A stretch of 64,000 nt of DNA. It comes from Quercus robur (lineage: Eukaryota > Streptophyta > Magnoliopsida > Fagales > Fagaceae). Shown here piece after piece: positions 19,675-61,750 of this stretch. The stretch lies in NCBI RefSeq assembly GCF_932294415.1, contig NC_065541.1, forward strand, positions 66,928,695 to 66,992,694. Direction: 5' to 3'. The notes beneath the pieces were generated by a model. It searched no databases. It saw only the letters and a program-made list of their open reading frames with translations, and was not told the DNA's origin. Within the stretch, counting starts at the first letter, position 1. The number at the start of each line of letters is the position of its first letter. The position numbers and the translations under genes are program-made.

Positions 19675-20058
19675 GGGTAAATTGTAAATTACACCCCTAA
19701 AGTTTGAGATGTCTAGATTTTACATCCTAAAGTTTCAAAATTATGATTTTATTCCCTGAAGTTTGAGAGTGTTTGGATTTTATACCATACATTTTAGAAT
19801 TTGGGTTTTACTCCCTAAATTTCAGGGATGTTTGGATTTTACTATCTAATATTTGGAAGTGTTTGGATTTTACACCCTAAAATTTTAGAATTTTGGGTGT
19901 AAAATTCAAACACTTCCAAACTTTAGGGGATAAAATCCATATTTTGAAACGTCAGGTGTAAAATTCAAATTCTAAACTTTCAATTTACCCCCTAAACTTT
20001 CAAAGTGTAAAATCTAAACTTGTCCAAGTATAATTTTCAATTTACCCCCTAAATAAAA
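19675..20058. repeat. Fold-back repeat with internal repeats
   Basis: The left half repeats the motif GTTTGGATTTTA with ACCCTAAA-type spacers at least four times. The right half carries the inverse, such as GTGTAAAATTCAAACACTTC and ATTTACCCCCTAAA. The two halves can fold into one long imperfect hairpin centred near 19895. It probably is a fold-back MITE; transcripts of it would be double-stranded. Confidence 0.7.
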
Positions 20059-30424: not shown

Positions 30425-31171
30425 AGATGGAGATGATGATTTTGGCCTTAAAACTCATCAACCCAAAGGAAAGTGGGAATTCTCCTTTTTCATCAATTTC
30501 TAAAACATGACACTTTTCTACTACTATTTTTGGTAGGTGAACTTCCACGCAACTTTTGAAGTGTTTAATACTAATACCGATTATCAACAATGATGAGCCA
30601 TAAAATATATCATTGTTCATGTATCAACCCACGATTATTCTTACTTTGGTTGAATATGGCTTAGATGTTGGTTGAACTTCAACAAATATGAATTTTGAAC
30701 AATAGTATGTTTCACATCAAATGAGAGGAAAATATTTCGTTTTTTCTTTTTCTTTTTAATGATAGAAAATATATGCCAATATTGATGTCAATAAGACTAA
30801 CATTTTAGCTAGGTTACAAATTACATGTTAAGCTTCCTTCATCAAATCACCTGTTTTATTTATTATGATATGCAATCTTTTCATCACCTTCATATTTATT
30901 TTTCTCAATCATGCTGTTTCACATTCTCTTGATATTTTATTTGATAAAAGTTGAATACATTCTCATGTAACGTCCAAGTCCAATTGGCTCGACCATAATC
31001 CAATTGATGATCATGGTTTGCACTAAACACTTCAAAAGCAACATGGAAGTTCTCCTACCAAAAATAGTTGTAGAAAAGTGTAGTTTCTAATATTTTGATT
31101 TAAAAGAGAATTCACACTCTCTTTTGGGCTAAAGAGTTTTAAGTCCAAAAGCATCATCTCCATATTTATAA
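30425..31171. repeat. Inverted repeat, about 150-bp arms, 450-bp spacer
   Basis: Bases 30425-30575 match the reverse complement of 31023-31171. Shared blocks in the minus-sense reading are AAACACTTCAAAAG, TGGAAGTTC, CTACCAAAAATAGT, GTAGAAAAGTGT and CATCATCTCCAT. By eye about 75-80% identical. The left arm on the minus strand stays open for 67 codons, but I recognise no protein. It may be part of an unclassified element or an inverted duplication of a gene scrap. Confidence 0.75.
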
Positions 31172-35855: not shown

Positions 35856-36212
35856 TTATTATTTTCAGTCACAATCATTAGTAGTAGTTGAAAAAAAAGT
35901 TATGTTCGCCTTAGAATGACGTAACACTCATATTTACAATACATGATATAGTAATAATAGACTTCAATAATATGTAAGGGCAAAACTTAGATATAGTATC
36001 TTAGGTACAGTACATTAGGTTCCCTACTTAAAATTTTGACATCTGTCCAATTTACAACCCAAACAAACGGCGTTAAAACTAAAAATTATTTTCTTTTCTT
36101 TTTTTTTCTTCTTCTTCTTTTTCCTGTACTGCAACTGCAAGAGAACCTATGGCTTCATATCTTGGCATTGTAGGATCTGTGCCTTCTGTTGAAGAATAAA
36201 TAGATATCATCA

Positions 36213-36416
36213 TCAAAAGCAAACAAAAAAGCCACAGTAAAAAAATAAGGAAGAAAGGGGAAAAAAGCAGAAAGCTTCCTTCTTAGACTCGCTCTTGATC
36301 TTTGAGCCCAACGACTCGCCTCTTCTCAAAATCATCACCTTCTCCATCGCCGGACCGGTCTTCACCACTCTCAGATCGTCCGCAGAGCTCAACCTCTTCA
36401 AGACCGATGGCTCCAC
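36213..36416 (-). pseudogene. Captured gene fragment of unknown family in the outer element
   Basis: On the minus strand the frame reads MEPSVLKRLSSADDLRVV, then AMEKVMILRRGESLGSKI and KSESKKEA before becoming low complexity. The charged, motif-like ILRRGESL phrase and higher GC content look like real plant exon sequence, not random DNA. I recall similar phrases in small uncharacterised plant proteins but cannot name a family. The frame has no domain, and its position inside a MULE explains it as captured DNA. Confidence 0.45.
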
Positions 36417-37439
36417 TGTGGTGACATACCTTTTCTTCTCCTACCGGACTACCAATTTCCGGCTAGATCTAGTGTTAGAATAGTTAAAGTTAGGGTTTCC
36501 ATAGTTTCTCCGGCGATAAAAAACCGTTGGCTTCTTTATTTTCTCCTTTCTTCTTTATTTTTTTGCTGGAGATTTTTTGTTCGCTTTTGGTGAGCACCGT
36601 GGGAAAGTAGAAAGCTTAGCTTTTGATGGGCTGAGATGAGAACAAGTTTACAGCTGATGGACTTCTTTGTTTTCCTTTTTGTTCTCTCAAAAGGAGTACC
36701 TCCACATCCACCATCTTCATGGTTATTTTTATTATTTTATATGGTTTTAGTTGTAGTGAGCCAGTGACTATTGGATTTATTTGGATTTCCCACGGTGATT
36801 TTGGCTTTTTACTTTATTTGGAGTAGAAAGCATAGCTCATCTCTTTATTCTTCAGCGGAAGGCACAAATCCTAGAATTCGAAAGATTTGATATGGCGTAA
36901 ATGCTCTTTTCGTCCCTACATTTTGGGGTAATTTCTATTTTGGTCCCTACATTTCTATTTTGCCACTTTTAGTCCCTAATCTAATTAACACGTGTTATTT
37001 TAGTCCTTTCCGTTAGCCAACAGACAAAAATAGTTGACGTGGCTGACGGAAGAATTAAAATATTATTAAAAAAGCCACATCAGATAAAATAATATAAAAA
37101 ATTTCTAACTATCTTATTTTTTTTATTAAAAAAAAAAGAAAAGAAAATAAATAAATTTATTTTGTTTCTCTTTTTTTGGGGAGAACATGAAGAATCTAGA
37201 ACATGTATTCTTCCCGTCAATCATGTTCTTCATTTTCTTCCTAGCAAACCTTGCCCAGAAATTTAAAAAATCAATATTTTTTGTTTTCTCTTTTCTTATA
37301 TTTCCTTAGCAACAAAGCCCATAAAATCAGTCAGATTTACAAACACAAAGACATGCCCACAAATTTACAAAACACAAACACATTCAACAATTACTCTATC
37401 ATTATTTCACGTTCCCATTACACAAAGACCTTCAAGGAT

Positions 37440-37775
37440 TCAAAATACCTTCAACAAACCCAAGTCTTTACACGCCTTAATCCAAATTTACAGACCCAAG
37501 CAAACCCAAATAGCAAAAATCCCAAACTCAAGATCGCTTTCCTCTTCCTCACCAACTCCGACCTCCACTTCGCCCCTTTCTGGCAGCAGTTTTTCCAAAA
37601 TGCCCCTTCCAAAAACCCCTACAACGTGTATGTCCATGCCAATCCTTCCGTCAACGTCACTCGCCCTAAGGGCACCGTCCTTACCTACCGTGGCTCACCG
37701 ACGCTCATCTCCGCCACGCGCCGTTTGCTCGCCATCGCCGTCATCGACAATCCAGCCAACGCATTCTTCTTCTTC
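37440..37775 (+). pseudogene. Captured GT14 (Core-2/I-branching-like) glycosyltransferase fragment
   Basis: The frame reads LKIAFLFLTNSDLHFAPFW, then YNVYVHANPSVNVTRP and SPTLISATRRLLAIAVID. These match the N-terminal catalytic-domain start of plant GT14 proteins (DUF266/BC10 type), normally about 380 aa with one N-terminal membrane anchor. Only some 90 residues of the enzyme are present. The piece between NVTRP and SPTLIS is shorter than in the family, and the sequence after NPANAF turns into unrelated DNA. The upstream part of the open frame (37251-37440) is not GT14-like. It is a transduplicated fragment, not a working gene. Confidence 0.85.
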
Positions 37776-38059
37776 TTTTTTCTGTATCGGATCTCCTTGG
37801 AGTTCGAATTCAGGTTGATGGAGCCAGATCTGTCTCTGGGAGCCATTTGGGTTTGTAAAAGTTTTGGAGATTTGGATTTGTTTGGAACAAGTGAAAGAGT
37901 CAGAAACAGTGTTTGAGGAAAGGAAGGAAGTGAGGGTGTGGGTTTTTATAGAGGTAGGTTAGAGAGAGAGAGTGTGCGTTTAAGAGGGTGTGGGTTTTGT
38001 GTTGTTGTGATTTGGGTCTGTGTTTGTGTTTGATCTCTGTTTTTTCTTTTTCTTTTTCT

Positions 38060-38375
38060 TTTTTCGTTTGTGTTGTTGTAATCTGGGTTTGAGTTATTGG
38101 TTGCTGGGTTTGTGTTCTTGTAATATGGGTTTGAGTGTTTAATCTTCTTTTTTTTTTTTTTTTTTTTTTTTTCTTTTTTCGTTTGTGTTGTTGTAATCTA
38201 GGTTTGAGTTATTGGTTGCTGGGTTTGTGTTCTTGTAATCTGGGTTTGAGTGTTTGATCTCTGTTTTTTTTTTTTCCTTTTTCGTTTGCGTTGTTGTAAT
38301 CTGGGTTTGAGTTATTGGTTGCTAGGTTTGTGTTCTTGTAATCTGGGTTTGAGTTCTTCGTTGCTGGGTTGGATT
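38060..38375. repeat. Tandem repeat, three units of about 100-120 bp
   Basis: Each unit has TTCGTTTG(T/C)GTTGTTGTAAT, GGGTTTGAGTTATTGGTTGC and GTTTGTGTTCTTGTAAT, separated by T-runs of different length. It lies in the right half of the inner Mutator-type element. Internal tandem repeats near the ends are common in MULEs. Confidence 0.85.
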
Positions 38376-38782
38376 GGGAAGAACAATGAAAATTAATAAT
38401 GATAAGTAATATGTTTTTAAAAAAAATTAAATTAGATTTAAGGTTTTTTTTTTATTTTAATAATATTTTAATTGTTATATCAGTGCCACATCAGCGTCAC
38501 GTCAGCCAATAGAATGTTCTGTTAGCCACATAAGCTATTTCCATCTATTGGCTGACGGAAAGGACTAAAATAACACGCGTTAATTGGATTAGGGACTAAA
38601 AGTGGTAAAATAGAAATGTAAGGACCAAAATAGAAATGACCCCAAAATGTAGGGACGAAAAGAGCATTTATGCCATTTGAAATCTGAAGTAGTTGTTAAA
38701 TTGGACTAATGTCAAAATTTTAAGTAGGGAACCTAATGTACTATAGCTATGGTACTGTACCTAAGTTTTGCCCAATATGTAA

Positions 38783-40184: not shown

Positions 40185-40732
40185 TCATTGAACTACAAGA
40201 TTATTGATAAAAGACAACAGTTAATGCAATAAACCATTTAGGTACTTGAAATCATTTAATTTCGTTGTTAATCATTTGTTAGAATATGTAGATTAATCAT
40301 CCAAAATAGCTTCATTTTAGTAAGAAATTTAAGTAAGTTTCTTAAATTATTTATGTAATTGGTTTTTATTTCCTATCTTAATTTTTGTGTTGGTGGTATA
40401 ATCAACTTCAATAATATGTGTTATATTTTTAAAAACAAAAGTGATTAAAATTTAGTTGTTACAAAAATCTATATTAAAAATATACAATATTTAGAGACAC
40501 AGCAAATTTGAATATATGGCGTTCGTTTTATGAGTTTTATATCTTACCGTCGTCGAAAAGTATGAGCGCAAGTTAATTTGGCATTAAAAACATGCATGTA
40601 GATGAATTTAATGTTACCATATCATGAACACAAGCATGTATTTGGTGAAGAAAAAAAAAATTACAAAGAGTTTAATAACAATTTTTGTTTTATTCCAAAA
40701 TATTCCAGCTACAGTAACTAAACAAATACTAT
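40185..40732. other. Spacer, nothing recognisable
   Basis: AT-rich DNA between two LTR-type elements, without coding or repeat signals I recognise. Confidence 0.5.
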
Positions 40733-43700
40733 TGTAAGGATTCAATTTGTAACGACCTCAAATTGGTGTATTGAGTTCGAACGTTAAAGGCCCAAACAAT
40801 AAAATTTGTAGAGAGTGGGCTAAAAGGCTAGGCCTTGGTGAATGAACAGCCGTTAGTCATGGTGTTCGTGATGATCGTTTAGAGGTGAACTGTGCTTGCC
40901 CAAGAAAACTTTCTCCTCGGTACGGCCTGGGTGGCTCTGGTTCTTAGCCCTGGTCCCAGCCCCCTTTTCTGGATTGCTTTCTTCTCCTTTTATACTAGCC
41001 TTTCCCTTCCCTTCAACTTCCACGTGTAGGTTCAGCTTTCTAGGGCTGATACTTGTCCTATCAGCCCATACCCAAAGTGGTTGGGGGTAGTTGTAAAAAC
41101 TTAAAAGCATGGTTCTGTCAGGCACAGAGTACTTAATTGCAATAATGGCAGTCTTTCCCTTATCCTTTGTTGCCACACTGTTCAGGGGTCCTTTCCCCAT
41201 CAATGCGAATGTGTTTAGCTTTTCATTGAACAGCTCCTATACTGTACTCGCCCTTTCTTCTAGGAGCGCTTTGGGATGCCGAGGACAGAATCGTCCTCGG
41301 TTATATCTCTAGGGCATTTGGACTTCCGTTGCATGTCCTCTGCAACGCCTCTCCTTGACGCGGGCCTTGGGCCCTAATATAAAGTGGGTCGGGATGACAA
41401 ATTCTCTGGCCCCACAATAGCCCCTCAAAATCCTGTTGTCCAACTCCTCGGACGGAGAGGAGGATTTTGGTGACGTCAGGCCTATGTCATGGTTTGCCAA
41501 GACTTGTCCTTTATCAATGCTGGAGCCTTGTCGTTTGCCTGGGACATGCCCCTAGTTGTGAGACATTCTTTTGGTTTACCCACGCCGCGCTCCTGCTGTT
41601 TCGGTACACGAGGCGCGCCTTTAATAAGGTCTCTTTACGAGGCGACGCAAATCCAACGGCTAAAGACTGCTTTGGGAATTGAGCGGGACTTATCTCGTTT
41701 GTAGTTTTTCTTGGAGATTTATACAGATTAAATGCCGTCAGGCTTGCCCTCCATATAAGAAGCACGATGGGAGGTCATTTCCTTTATGTACAGACCCTTT
41801 AAGCTTTTCAAATCCCTAACCCTCCAATTGTGCTCAAAGTCCCCACCACTAGTGTGACTGAGCCCTAGGGAGTGATATGGTCAAGGCCAGGATGAGGGTG
41901 AAGGGACCACACCCTTTCCAGAAGCCTTGGGTTTCTTCGAGATTCAAGATGGCCTGGTCAGGGCAAAGGAGACAAAGACTCAAGACACTTCTTCCCCCTG
42001 ATAAGGCAAGAAAGGAGCATTTTCTTCCTTCAGCCAAAATTCGAAGCAAGTGGAGGTCGCATTAGATTTTTGGTGCGACAGCACTGAGATTTCTCATTGC
42101 CGATACCATCCGTTCTCGCTCGATTGCCGCTAATATGATGCTTGCTATATTGCAGTTAGGGCTGGTATGGGGATTTGGCATCCCCGCTTCTTCTTTTCTT
42201 CCATCACTGGTGCCACCCAGGCGCCTCTGCTTCTTCTTCTCTTCCATCACTGGTGCCATCCAGACATGCTTAGTTGCTGCTAGAGCAAAATTGAAGGATT
42301 TATCGTTCCCATGTATCCCCCCCCTTTTTTTTTTCTTTTTGCTTCTGTAGTTAACTTCTGGTATAGGCTTGTTTAAACCCCTTTTATTGTACGCTGTACT
42401 ACTTCTTTGTCTAATAAAAGATGACTTTATCCCATTTTGTGTGTTCTTTCTTTTCCGCACTAATTATTTTGTGATGGATGTGCTGGTGTCCTTTTCTTTC
42501 GAACAGTACTTAGGGCCGAAACCCTTGTTAACAAAAAGCTATCACTTTGAACTTATTAAAACTGACGGGCACAATAATGTCGACTTGAAGTAGGTTAACC
42601 ATATGAGACTAACCGGGATAATAGCTGAACGTTCTGTATTGCATATGGGGTGATCACCCGAGGATGGGTAACCTAAAATGAACTATCCGAGAGGGTCGCC
42701 GGGCACTAAGGTGCTTTGCCACGTTCCTGACGACATTCATAACCTTAACTTGCTTTTGGTATCCGGTTCGAGGACCGAGGTATGACTGTACCGGGTCTAA
42801 ACATTCGGTTGTGTTAGTTTCCTTAGAGTTGGGGGTCCGAGGACCGTGCGGGATCTCCATTCTGTCTAGGACTTAAGCCATTTTCTAGTGACTAGTTTCC
42901 CCATAGGTTTGAGTCCGAGAATCATGCAAGACCTTGATTCTATCCAAAACTTATATTTTTTGAAGTAGTTGGTTTCCCCATAGGTTTGAGTCCGAGGACC
43001 ATGCAAAACCTTGGTTCTGTCCAAAACTTATATTTTTTGAAGTAGTCGGTTTCCCCATAAGTTTGAGTCCGAGGACCATGCAAGACCTTAATTCTGTCCA
43101 AAACTTATATTTTTTGATCCCTTGGGGATTAACCCCTTGGCATATGTGTGGGCCTTAAAATTTATGTTAGAAGCCCCTAGAACTGCCCGTGCCACTGGCG
43201 CTTTGAAGTGTAGCCTTGAGTGGGAGCTGAGTTAGGGCAACAACCGCGTGTTGTTGGAAATGATGGAGTGGCTTTCGCATAGCTTGCACCACTACCAAAA
43301 TTATTTCTCTCGAGGGGCCCTTGTTGACAGGGGCTTGATCCTTCCACGACTAACCGCCACCTACGCCAATGCACAAGCCTTCCCACAGACGGCGCCAATT
43401 GTAAGGACTCAATTTGTAACGACCTCAAATTGGTGTATTGGATTCAAACGTTAAAGGCCTAAACAATAAAATTTGTAGAGAGTGGGCTAAAAGGCTAGGC
43501 CTTGGTGAACGGACAGCCGTTAGTCATGGTGTTCGTGATGATCGTACAAAGGTGAACTGTGCTTGCCCAATAAGACTTTCTCCTCGGCACGGCCCTGGTT
43601 CTTGGCCCTGGTCCCAGCCCCCTTTTATGGATTGCTTCCTTCTCCTTTTATACTAGCCTTTCTCCTCCCTCCAATGTCCACATGTAGGTTTAGCTTTCTA

Positions 43701-44073
43701 GGGCTGATACTTGTCCTATCAGCCCATACCCAAAGTGGTTGGGGGTGGTTGTAAAAGCTAAAAAGCATGGCTTTGTCAGGCGCAGAGTATTAATTGCAGT
43801 AATGGCAAACTTTCCCTTGTCCTTTGTCGCCACACTGTTCAGGGGTCCTTTCCCCATCAATGCGGAGGTGTTCGGCTTTTCCTTGAACCGCTCCTGTACT
43901 GTACTCGCACTTTCTTCTAGGAGCGCTTTGGGATGCCGAGGATAGAATCGTCCTCAGCTATATCTCTAGGCCATTTGGACTTCCGTTGCATGTCCTTGGC
44001 AACGCTTCTCCTCGGCGCGGGCCTTGGGCCCTAATGTAAAGTGGGCTGGGATCACAAATTCTCTGGCCCCACA
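40733..44073 (-). mobile_element. Whole non-autonomous LTR retrotransposon (TRIM/LARD-like)
   Basis: Two LTRs, 40733-41416 (684 bp) and 43400-44073 (674 bp), lie in direct orientation and are about 93% alike by eye in the first 200 bp. ACTAT flanks the element on both sides (40728-40732, 44074-44078). The ends are TGTAAGGA and GGCCCCACA. Beside the right LTR, read on the minus strand, lies TGGCGCCGTCTGTGGGAA, a primer-binding-site-like sequence; beside the left LTR lies the purine-rich TTTTGAGGGGCTATTG. The element therefore runs on the minus strand. The 2-kb interior shows no gag or pol motif, so it would depend on a partner. LTR similarity suggests insertion a few million years ago. It lies 230 bp beyond the dead polygalacturonase gene. 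Confidence 0.92.
42893..43123. repeat. Tandem repeat of 77 bp, three units, inside the LTR element
   Basis: Three units beginning GGTTTCCCCATAGGTTTGAG and continuing CCAAAACTTATATTTTTTGA follow each other at 42893, 42970 and 43047. More diverged units with GTCCGAGGACC precede them. They lie in the 5' (primer-site) half of the interior of the LTR element. Confidence 0.9.
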
Positions 44074-44300
44074 ACTATCTACAACAGCACTCTAGATCAT
44101 AGCAGCTTTTAGTAAAAGGCTGAACTCAAACAAATCTAAAAATTACTATCCAACATTCCACAATTTCATTTAAATAAAGAAAAAGGGAACATGATAGACT
44201 GAAGTAAATGAAATTCTACTTAGAATAGAACTCCTATAACCTATTTGCAAATAGTATTTCCTCATTTTGCATTAGTTACAATAGCTTGGGAGGCATTTTA

Positions 44301-46418
44301 TTATTGTTTGCTGGTACAAGCATGAGGATTCTGCTTGCTCGAAACGGTGGGCTTGACATTAACACAAGTGGAAGTAGCAGATGCTCCTGCTCCCTTGTAT
44401 GCGAGATCAATGTTAGCAACCGCCACTTGTTGGCATGGTACGCTGTTACTGCAAATAAGCTTCACAGCTCCTTTGTTGAAGAAGTGCCTCTAATGTTCTT
44501 GAAGCTAACATTGCTGATCTTAACTTTCAAGGGAGACTGAAAGCAAAACAAACAAACAAAAACCCACACAAGAATTTGATATTAGCGTCTGTAATTTGTT
44601 TTTCTTTTTTTAACTTTTAACATCAAAATGAGTGTATATATTTGTGATGTTTGTAATAACCTTGTTTGAGCATTGATTGTTTGGGCAGTAGCCTTGATCA
44701 ATGAGGATAGGATTGGCAACATTGTTCATGATAATATTCTCGAAATGCATATCAGAAGCACTCCCAGGAAGGCAAGAAGGCCATGTTTTGATTCTAACAC
44801 CTTCTTTGTATTGCTAAGGGTGCCACCAATTACTCTGATTCCTAAAACAGGTTGTTCATTCTAGTACCTTCCAAGGCTTCCAACACTGATACCATGGCCA
44901 GGTCCACAAGTTACTTGGTTAGCAACAACATCTTGGGTTCCATCACCAATGGAGATGCAATCGTCACCTATTCCAACGTTGGCATTGGTGATGATGATCT
45001 TAGATGAATGTCCGATGTGAATTCCATCAGTGTTGGGGCTATCTCCGGGTGCAGTTATGGTAACATGTTGGATTTGCAAGTTCTTGCATCCCATAACGTT
45101 TATGTGGAAAAATTTGTTGTCCTTCGATTTAATGTCACGGACTATTGAATTTGTGACGAAATTGAACCTTATATTCTGTTCATGTTTACAAGTTAGAAAA
45201 ATCAAAACATCAAATATTAATACCATGGTTTCATTTAAATATTCTCCTAACAATATTTTCATTTAAATATATTATAGTAAAATGCTAACGCTTCTTTGAA
45301 TTACTATATTAAAAAAATTACAAATATATATCAATGAATGTGGTTGGTACTACTTTAACAATATTATATAATAATAAAAAATTCTTTTTGGACAAAAAAA
45401 TTTGTCACAGCTTGATGTTACATGCGAGTATGATTGGTGAACCATCGCTTTCACCTTTAACTACCACTTTTTCTCCATTACACACAGTTGCACAGGTTAG
45501 GGTCATGGCATAGAAGTTGTGTCCATATTCCGTATTTGGACTTTCTCATATATAAATTTGGAATTATCTTTTTTGGTGAGTTGTGACACCTCACTATATA
45601 AAGCTTACATCAAATTATTAATAATATGATAATATCCTTAACATCATTAAACAAATAAGTGCTTGAATTAGTATTTCGTGATGGTTAAAGTTCTTAAAGT
45701 TGTAGTGTCTATATATATCTACATAAATATAATGGAAATTTAAATGCTAATTATTAAGATTGAAATCTTACGATAGGAAGTGTTTTGCAGCTGTACTTTT
45801 TGTTACAATTATTTTTTTGCTATGCCGTTTGTCCTTTGCCATCAAAAACTCCACCACCTGACACAGTGAGATTGTTGATACGTTGAAAAGAAACCCAAAA
45901 GTCTTTACCGTTGAAGGAGGCAACGTCTGATGGGGCCTGTAGGGTGCCTTGAAGGTGAAACTCAATAGCACCTTTGCATGGACCTAATAAAGTCACTACA
46001 CCTAGTTTGTATGTCCCTACTGAAATCACAACTTTACTTCCTGCTACTGCGCATGCAGCTTTTCAAGCTTTTGTCCAAGCCTGATAAACACATTATGAAA
46101 AATCGAAATCAGTATATTACAATCTTTTTTCATGTTAATGTTTTATCATCTGGTCAAGACACCAAAGAGTTTTTAGTGTAAGCAGAGTTTGAACTCAAGT
46201 ACTTTTATTTGACATTAAAAGACTTTACTAGTTAAGTTAACTAGAACTCACTTTTCATGTTAATTAGGTATAGTTAATTGTGCTACACATATTTATACCT
46301 GGGTGATATCAACATTAGGTTGTCCTCCATACGATTTAACATCAAATACTTGCCCGACACTGGTGGATGCCAACAACAATAGCAAGGAAATTGTTACAAT
46401 GCTCAAATTCTTTCCCAT
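44301..46418 (-). pseudogene. Polygalacturonase (GH28, exo-PG type) pseudogene
   Basis: Four exon-like blocks on the minus strand: 46418-46299, 46080-45772, 45175-44661 and 44536-44301. They would give the normal family length of about 390 aa. The first encodes a signal peptide (ISLLLLLASTSVG) and VFDVKSYGG. The GH28 motifs are all visible: NTDGI, GDDC, GHG and RIK. Such enzymes trim pectin in the cell wall, often in pollen. The gene is dead: TGA at 46063-46065 and TAG at 45820-45822 replace conserved Trp codons, TAG at 44861-44863 follows SLGRY, and a base is missing near 44803 and near 44468. Splice sites are still intact, so loss is fairly recent. A SINE sits in intron 1. Confidence 0.93.
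46139..46253 (-). mobile_element. tRNA-derived SINE in polygalacturonase intron 1
   Basis: On the minus strand TAGTTAACTTAACTAGTAAAG (box A region), GAGTTCAAACTC (box B) and AAAAACTCTTTGGTGTCTTG follow in order, the same plan as the SINE at 29663. It is more diverged than that copy. Confidence 0.7.
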
Positions 46419-58524: not shown

Positions 58525-59931
58525 TCAGCTAAGGAGATTGACTTCCAAATCATTATTCTCACCTTCAGTGGCCAAAGCCAGATCCTTGGCCCTTATAGCC
58601 TGCTGCTTCCAATCAGTTGAAACCAAAGTGTAGATCATCATGCACATACATGATATCTGAGCTGCCGCAAGACCAAACCACAACCCCATAAAGCCCTTTC
58701 TGAATCCAAAACTCATGAGAACTGCAACTGGCATACCAATTAGATAGAAGGAGCCAAAATTAATATAAGCACCCACCTTAGCCCGTGCAGAGCCTGTGAG
58801 GACTCCACATGCAGCTGTCTGGGGACTATTGCCTAGCTCACAAAAGCCTAATACAGGAAGGGCAGTTGATGTTAGAGCAAGGACATTTGGCTCACATGTA
58901 AATAGCTTGCCCCACTCATCTCTAACTGCAATTGTAAAAGCAAAAGCCAGTATACCGCACACAATCGCCACAATGAGTCCAATTATTGTTGTCTGTCGAG
59001 CCTGCGCAGGCTGCCCAGCCCCCAACTTTTGGCCAACACATGTTGATAAACCCAAGCCAAGAGAGTGAGGAAACACATAGAGCAATCCTGTTGTTTGTAT
59101 GAGGATTCCCATTGCAGCCACACTTGCCTGTGGATCACTAAGTAGACCGCACAATAGGAGCATTATCTCATACCACCACCACTCCAAACAGACAGAGAGA
59201 ACGCTTGGCACTGCAAGGGCTAGCAATGGTTGCCAGCCTTGAGAGCATTCATGTTTTGCTTTCCCATCCCAAGGTTTTAGTGCTGTCCTTGATTGGAAAA
59301 GGTAAACTAGCAAAGCAAGGTACAGGTTTAAGGTAGTCCAGGATGAGGCTAGAGCAACACCCCTTATCCCCATATTCAAATATGTTACAAGATAGTAGTT
59401 GATAGGGAGGTGGAGAATTATTGCACAAACAGCAGATATAGTGAGGGCTTTGGTTAGATTTTGTGTCCTTATGAAAATCTTTAAGGGATGGAGGAGGACT
59501 TGGGCTAGTAAATCAGGAAGAGAATATGTTATATAAGCCTTGGCCACAGACGTAATGTTTCGATCTTGACCTAACCATAGAAGGATGGGTTCCATGTTCA
59601 ACCACAAAAGAGAAATTGGAATGGCTGCAAGAAAGAGGAGATACTGAGTCCTTTTGTATGTTTGGCAGAAAACTTCCCATTTTTTTGCTCCATAAGCTTG
59701 AGAACAAATTGGTTCCATCCCCAACGCCAGGCCTTTCAGAACAGAGTAGCCTGTAATATTTGCAAATCCAACTGAAAGTGAGCCCCCAGCTAATTCAGCA
59801 TCCCCAAGATATCCCAAGAAGACTGTGGAGATGATTGCCTTGGGATATAAAAGCAAGCTTGAGGCTACTATGGGCCATGCAATTTTACAGAGTGATGTCA
59901 GCTCCTCTGCTACCTGCATAAATTCATACAC
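58525..59931 (-). CDS. DTX53: MATE transporter, DETOXIFICATION 53 type
   Basis: One uninterrupted frame of 468 aa on the minus strand with twelve hydrophobic helices, the full MATE fold. Blocks TVFLGYLGDAELAGGSLSV, FANITGYSVLKGLALGMEPI, CSQAYGAKKWE, SVCLEWWWYEIMLLLCGLL and ELGNSPQTAACGVLTGSARA are typical of the plant MATE clade that includes DTX48-56. MQVAEELTSLCKIAWPIV and the whole C-terminal half agree best with Arabidopsis DTX53 as I remember it. MATEs export organic compounds by ion-coupled antiport; the substrate is unknown. The annotated start is MYEF; Met5 (59919) fits the family start MQV better. The same ATGCAG also resembles a splice acceptor, so a short upstream exon is possible. 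Confidence 0.92.
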   Translation of the reverse strand: MYEFMQVAEELTSLCKIAWPIVASSLLLYPKAIISTVFLGYLGDAELAGGSLSVGFANITGYSVLKGLALGMEPICSQAYGAKKWEVFCQTYKRTQYLLFLAAIPISLLWLNMEPILLWLGQDRNITSVAKAYITYSLPDLLAQVLLHPLKIFIRTQNLTKALTISAVCAIILHLPINYYLVTYLNMGIRGVALASSWTTLNLYLALLVYLFQSRTALKPWDGKAKHECSQGWQPLLALAVPSVLSVCLEWWWYEIMLLLCGLLSDPQASVAAMGILIQTTGLLYVFPHSLGLGLSTCVGQKLGAGQPAQARQTTIIGLIVAIVCGILAFAFTIAVRDEWGKLFTCEPNVLALTSTALPVLGFCELGNSPQTAACGVLTGSARAKVGAYINFGSFYLIGMPVAVLMSFGFRKGFMGLWFGLAAAQISCMCMMIYTLVSTDWKQQAIRAKDLALATEGENNDLEVNLLS

Positions 59932-61750
59932 AGTATTAGGTAATTCAAGATATACTAAGACATCTGTTCAAAATATTACTTATCAAAAAAAAAAAAAGAA
60001 AAAAAGTTCAGAATATGATTTACCATAATGCTAAGAAAACTGATAGCCACACAGAAAAATTCACACTGTTATGTCGATTTTGCCTGTAGGTGGGATGAAC
60101 AATCTTTTCACTATTTTGAAAGGATTAGGGTTTTCTTGGCTTCTTGGTTTACACCTACTCCAAATTAGAATACTCTTGTAACCCCAGAACCATCTCTTAG
60201 CAGAGCCTTATTTCCCGCACCATGAAGAGCTTGTAAAACCCTTCCGTAAATCAACATACTCTGTATCCACCCACCAAATTCATTATAAAACTGTGATAGT
60301 ATTGATCAACAAATTGGTTCTCTATTATGAATGGAGAGGCACAAGTCACGATGCTGTGCACGTGGTGGGCAGTTGCGGAAACTGACAAATGTGGTAGTTG
60401 GATTTAACTTTTGACTCCCGGAATTTTCGTTCATACAATCATGTGTCAATTTGATGAGGTCTTTCTGGTGAGATGAAATAGTGATTTTGCTTCATCTGTT
60501 TGGAAAGATGTCCCATCTGTATTTGCCAACCTGGTGACAAGTGATTGGAATTGTTTCCATTAATTGTCCTCGATTTGATTTTTATATAATGGCATCACCT
60601 TTATTTGTACTTTCCCTCTTTTACAATTTGAAGTTTACCATATATGACTTTCAAAGGGTAGAAATCCTAGTTTGCAATTGAATGGATATCCAGGCTGTGA
60701 ATCGTGCATCAATTAGGTTTTTTTTATAGTTGAATTGTACCATTTATTAGTTTGATCATGTTATTAGAGTATTAACCTCAACACCGCTCTCTGATTATGC
60801 ATTACTGTCAATTAGTGTTTGGACCCTGGTGGATTTTTTTTTTTTTTTGGTGTATTTAGATGACTAGTGAATCAATTAGTAAGCTTTGTTAGCCTCTGGT
60901 ATGAGTGTTTGGTGCTTCTTTAGTAGTTATTATACAAGTAGTTTGATTTTCAGTGCTTTTTAGCATTTGATGAGAAAATCATAGTTGGTTCTCAAGTAAG
61001 GAAAAACACTATTACCACTTATCCAAAAAAAATAAAAGGAAAAACACTATTACCAAAAGAGTTATGGAGCTTACATGGAAATTTTGAGTTGTTCATTCAT
61101 GTTGGACAGCTTTTAGTTGAAATGCAATGGATTCCACCAACTTTGGCAAAAATGTGGTCTACTGTATAGTTGACTTCATGTCTAGTTGAATCTGTCAGGA
61201 TTTGATTGTCGGTCATGAGCTTATAACTAAATTTTGCATATGCATTTACTCATATGCTATCTGCAAAATAGATCCACAGTTCTGGACAACAAATTATGCA
61301 GTACATCATTTGGGTTGTATCCAGATTCTACTTTACAAAAGAGGAAGACAAATTCGTGAAGCTAAACAAAGGGAAATGCTTTTTCCAGTCACAATGACCA
61401 ACCACAAACACCTTCTATTTTGTACTTCAGACTGGATTTTTTTTTACCTTGTATTTGCTATTCTATAAAGCTGATTGATGATTGATCCATATCCAGAAGA
61501 AAATGCAGGGAAGCCTGAGAATTAGAAACGCCCAAATTGAGGTTGCTTGATTGCTTGTGGTCATGGCTACCCATTTGCTGGAAACTGGGTGAAAATCAAG
61601 GCAAGAATTGCTTGGAAGTTGCAAAACCAGGAGGAGAGAATTCTGCTTAGAGGGAACAATGCCCCCCTTTTTGCTTGGGAATTTCCAGACCTGGAAAAAA
61701 AAAAACATTTAACTTAGCAAATAAAGAATTTTCTGTTAAAACAAGAATTT
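59932..61750. other. Upstream region of the MATE gene, no other gene recognised
   Basis: The region probably holds the MATE promoter and leader. It contains an A-rich tail with CTTATCAAAAAA at about 59979 (another LINE/SINE-type tail) and AT-rich filler. Open frames at 61202-61468 and 61463-61708 show no motif. No exon with good splice context was found. Confidence 0.45.

Follow-up and report, generated by a model that had tools for sequence, protein, structure and literature searches.

Two nested elements and their borders

The window, a stretch of 64,000 nucleotides from Quercus robur, harbors two elements with inverted ends, one lying inside the other and each flanked by a 9-bp target duplication. 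Their coordinates are as follows.

35978-38773: outer element, with inverted ends and flanking 9-bp duplication
35969..35977: outer target duplication, left copy, AATATGTAA, 9 bp
35978..36054, plus strand: left terminal arm of the outer element, inverted, 77 bp, complementary to the right arm at 69/77 positions
38697..38773, minus strand: right terminal arm of the outer element, inverted, 77 bp
38774..38782: outer target duplication, right copy, AATATGTAA, 9 bp
36894-38674: inner element, with inverted ends and flanking 9-bp duplication, 1781 bp
36885..36893: inner target duplication, left copy, ATTTGATAT, 9 bp
36894..37051, plus strand: left terminal arm of the inner element, inverted, 158 bp, complementary to the right arm at 142/158 positions
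38517..38674, minus strand: right terminal arm of the inner element, inverted, 158 bp
38675..38683: inner target duplication, right copy, ATTTGAAAT, 9 bp
38026..38354, no strand: tandem array within the inner element, period 115, 3.0 copies

The two copies of the outer duplication (AATATGTAA) are identical over 9/9 positions, those of the inner one (ATTTGATAT and ATTTGAAAT) agree at 8/9, and both pairs lie exactly at the borders of the arms. The alignment score between the arms is 124 for the outer element and 252 for the inner one, against maxima of 32.5 and 46 respectively in 300 shuffles per element, made by permuting non-overlapping 2-mers. Random pairs of 9-mers from the window were identical in 27 of 400,000 draws and alike at eight or more of the nine positions in 160 of 400,000; for pairs taken from the AT-rich flanks the counts were 18/400,000 and 284/400,000 (overlapping draws skipped). 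Moreover, a scan of duplication lengths from 8 to 11 bp, with end shifts of up to 3, listed 9 bp as the sole solution for each element.

The ends of the two elements show no mutual match at E 0.01, and no second copy of either end family was found within the window at the same threshold. Those of the inner element open with two 31-bp units, which agree at 26/31 positions in the left end and at 23/31 in the right one, the left pair corresponding to the first 61 bp of the element plus one flanking base. With 158 bp, these ends fall within the 100-500 bp given for TIR-MULEs in the available part of PMC3903597, and the 77-bp ends of the outer element lie below this range unless its interrupted second arm (see below) is counted.

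The inner element sits within the outer one, 99 bp from its right end, indicating that it entered the outer element, which came first. Once the inner element and one copy of its duplication are removed, the outer element measures 1006 bp. The K2P distance between the arms is 0.11 for both pairs, but dating from this value was rejected, since the two arms of a pair may already have differed when the element inserted. The original prediction had described the nesting of two inverted-end elements from different end families and the insertion of the inner into the outer, with ends of about 80 bp and a perfect 9-bp duplication for the outer element, and ends of about 140 bp and an 8/9 duplication for the inner one. 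All of this holds, the ends measuring 77 and 158 bp and the coordinates being exact to the base.

Cargo of the two elements

Inside 35978-38773 there are 17 stop-to-stop frames with a length of at least 60 aa; a Pfam search of every one returned no transposase at E 1 or better, and both elements are therefore non-autonomous. A match to DUF6658 at 38209-38451 on the minus strand (E 0.0066, 16.7 bits against a cut-off of 27) and a few other matches below cut-off (E 0.06 or worse) were set aside as low-complexity noise. The following segments lie between the ends.

About 37533..37769, plus strand: fragment of a Core-2/I-branching glycosyltransferase domain (PF02485, Pfam), profile positions 1-92 of 250, in the inner element
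37781..37950, minus strand: putative promoter, leader and start of an ERF-type gene in the inner element, with TATAAA at 37945-37950, ATG at 37844-37846 and 22 codons, MAPRDRSGSINLNSNSKEIRYR
36155..36264, plus strand: left half of the second inverted arm of the outer element, pairing with 36839-36890 and 36540-36593
36540..36593, minus strand: inner of the two right-hand blocks of the second arm, in inverted pairing with the left half
36839..36890, minus strand: outer of the two right-hand blocks of the second arm, in inverted pairing with the left half
36594..36838, no strand: sequence confined to the right half of the second arm, 245 bp
36264..36554, minus strand: exon-like DNA in the outer element, reading as 97 codons interrupted by a single in-frame TAG (36441-36443)

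The inner element matches PF02485 with an E value of 8.6e-11 and 42.3 bits, against a curated cut-off of 23.4. The match lies in a 223-aa open frame, and its 79 residues span 92 profile positions, so that some residues are missing from the fragment. The GC fraction reaches 0.56 at 37530-37765 versus 0.30 in the flanks. Capture of host gene DNA is shown by this match, for the inner element only. A protein search of viral contigs (seven stretches) confirmed no relative of the glycosyltransferase piece, and three esterase chains returned from the PDB at E 2.5 or worse were taken as chance.

The neighboring minus-strand segment faces the PF02485 fragment, with its ATG 104 bp downstream of the TATAAA. 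In ERF repressors the motif KEIRYR stands immediately ahead of the AP2 domain, and we take the TATA-like box, the ATG and the 22 codons of MAPRDRSGSINLNSNSKEIRYR to come from the 5' end of an ERF-type gene that breaks off directly ahead of that domain. Beyond these codons the frame continues into lysine codons and then into antisense glycosyltransferase DNA, ending after 53 codons. It has no match in Pfam, where none would be expected given that the AP2 domain is absent from this piece, and none in the PDB at E 10. The inner element is probably a chimera of two donors, of which the glycosyltransferase is identified by the profile match and the ERF-type gene is our presumption. Its cargo falls short of a full gene and, at about 240 bp, is close to the 305-bp median of Pack-MULE cargo given in the part of PMC8277862 at hand.

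The outer element contains a second inverted arm, whose main blocks pair at 37/44 and 46/54 positions (score 79.5 versus a maximum of 42.5 in 300 shuffles). The 245 bp confined to its right half include a 16-nt direct repeat (15/16) at 36606-36621 and 36822-36837. Between the second arms, the GC fraction is 0.48 at 36280-36530 versus 0.30 in the flanks, and the minus-strand reading from 36554 to 36264 (RRRNYGNPNFNYSN...SADDLRVVKTGPAMEKVMILRRGESLGSKIKSESKKE) is putatively a fragment of a PNRC-like plant gene. This stretch has no Pfam match in the scanned minus-strand frame at 36213-36440, which lies beyond the 37-aa part above the stop, no relative was confirmed among viral contigs in a protein search of 30 pattern stretches, and the plus-strand frame had a single PDB match, at E 0.2, taken as chance.

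The outer element is probably also a Pack-MULE, carrying what we presume to be a decayed PNRC-like fragment. It is less likely, although this reading keeps some weight, that it is simply a non-autonomous MULE or MITE whose long arms are interrupted and which has captured no host gene, the inner element alone being a Pack-MULE. The second arm, which spans much of the interior, the in-frame stop in the exon-like stretch and the lack of a match of the cargo in Pfam, the PDB and viral contigs would all suit such an element, whereas the GC fraction of 0.48 against 0.30 and a 97-codon frame with one stop, whose resemblance to a plant PNRC-like protein we presume, speak for captured DNA. Of the contents originally predicted, the absence of a transposase (0/17 frames) and the presence of exon-like, GC-richer DNA in both elements (0.48 and 0.56) were recovered; captured host DNA, claimed for both, was found in the inner element but is shown by no database match in the outer one.

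Class assignment

Mutator-like elements have target duplications of 8-11 bp, hAT elements of 8 bp, and CACTA, PIF and Tc1/mariner elements of 2-3 bp. We infer Mutator membership from structure alone, namely the inverted ends and the 9-bp duplications. The latter (9/9 for the outer element, 8/9 for the inner) have the 9-bp length of Mutator-like elements (TIR-MULEs) and depart from the 8 bp of hAT, the outer repeat being 9/9 over 9 bp and a 9-bp solution existing for each element. A table row in PMC2528002 gives 3 bp for PIF. In addition, the inner element displays two marks of a Pack-MULE, a host gene fragment between its ends and no transposase of its own. It is very likely that the locus comprises two nested non-autonomous Mutator-like (MULE) transposons with different end families, the inner one a Pack-MULE.

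A different superfamily for either element or for both, hAT for instance, with a duplication of unusual length, appears very unlikely. The superfamily is deduced from structure and no transposase is tied here to either end family, which leaves some room for this reading, but the best duplication is 9 bp at both borders and long arms are typical of MULEs in the passages of PMC3310237 and PMC3903597. It is scarcely credible that the glycosyltransferase stretch was left behind by a gene resident at this site, between unrelated repeats. Such an origin would agree with the position of the stretch in a 223-aa open frame but not with a PF02485 match cut at profile position 92 of 250, nor with the 158-bp inverted ends and the 8/9 duplication at their border. 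Searches of viral contigs with the outer-end pattern gave 10 stretches, the longest match to the left end being 26 nt at 92% (5/10), taken as chance; the inner-end pattern gave none.

Pack-MULEs have been described in rice, and also in tomato, Arabidopsis and others. The two nested Mutator-like elements resemble them by their inverted ends, 9-bp duplication and lack of transposase and, for the inner one, by a short host-gene fragment inside, but only one of the three cargo pieces in this nest has a database match. For example, the tomato element PM-ZIBP-1 has 944 bp, a 9-bp duplication and 87% end identity, as given in part of PMC3310237. A transposon within a MULE has a parallel in the excerpt of PMC3903597, where 36% and 41% of the candidate coding-MULEs in maize and rice contain nested insertions; the hosts there encode transposase, whereas neither element does here and the inner one, at least, holds DNA of host origin. 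MULEs with multiple or extended TIRs, as presented in the passages of PMC3310237, likewise have extra inverted sequence inside the terminal repeat, and acquired sequence can join extended TIRs; the second arm of the outer element differs in being a distinct interrupted inverted stretch and not a copy of the end. Grapevine transduplications are also dicot Mutators with host gene pieces, for example cellulose synthase exons and introns, but involve other donor genes, and nesting is not mentioned in these passages of PMC2528002.

A text search of the literature with the end strings and the putative protein motifs matched nothing save one 13-mer in unrelated work, and exact phrases for nested Pack-MULEs were not found among the literature listed, neither of which proves absence from print. 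As far as the parts of these papers at hand go, nested MULE insertions are already known from PMC3903597, both Pack-MULEs and extended ends from PMC3310237, and the capture of genes in dicots from PMC2528002, and the present locus is one more clean instance, not a new principle.

Proposed history and genomic surroundings

The 1006-bp outer element landed first, in an AT-rich stretch, followed by the 1781-bp inner element inside it, 99 bp from its right end. Any movement of either element would depend on a transposase encoded elsewhere, which would recognise the inverted ends of that element and cut the target with a 9-bp stagger. The inner element holds the glycosyltransferase fragment, joined tail to tail with what we take to be an ERF-type promoter, leader and first 22 codons. 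This cargo was most likely gained by template switching or gap filling during repair, both described as capture models for Pack-TIRs in the excerpt of PMC8277862. It would most likely have no effect, or give rise to low levels of antisense or small RNA if promoters located in the ends drive transcription.

It is also conceivable, if rather doubtful, that the nest is a composite, the outer element having moved again with the inner one as cargo and up to three host-gene pieces in a 2.8-kb unit. Both outer ends are still present, and the perfect outer duplication, next to an inner one with a mismatch, fits a later last jump of the outer element, one base being weak evidence. A precedent is provided by rice MULEs, of which 107 continued amplifying with a MITE inside according to the passages of PMC3903597. 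In such a composite the inner element may, in addition, supply a captured promoter and start codon of its own.

The route for shuffling gene pieces named in the original prediction is known for Pack-MULEs as a class. Taking the two elements as successive Mutator-like insertions, the locus would be a compact and well-bordered case of gene-fragment capture, in which fragments from unrelated host genes were united and the order of insertion is readable. Such a nest could help to date capture and to test whether nested capturing elements travel as a unit.

Other features are present elsewhere in the window. Inverted arms of about 160 bp (77-85%) surround 737 bp at 30427-31163, perhaps another transposon, with no duplication seen in the 15 bases on either side. 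Direct repeats of about 690 bp, 91-93% alike, occur at 40731-41417 and 43398-44074 (2657-2667 bp from start to start) and look like a short LTR-type element, without a Pfam match in the two frames scanned (40853-41236, and 42062-42463 on the minus strand); within it, at 42881-43111, a 77-bp unit occurs three times in tandem, the copies being 84-86% alike. Part of a polygalacturonase-type gene of glycosyl hydrolase family 28 lies at 44861-45262 on the minus strand (E 4.3e-37), and a MatE transporter with a 480-aa open frame at 58525-59967, also on the minus strand (E 1.2e-70), both in keeping with plant DNA, presumably from a eudicot. Finally, a small MITE-like near-palindrome is located at 19833-19939, with 49-bp arms, 84% complementary, and a 9-bp loop.
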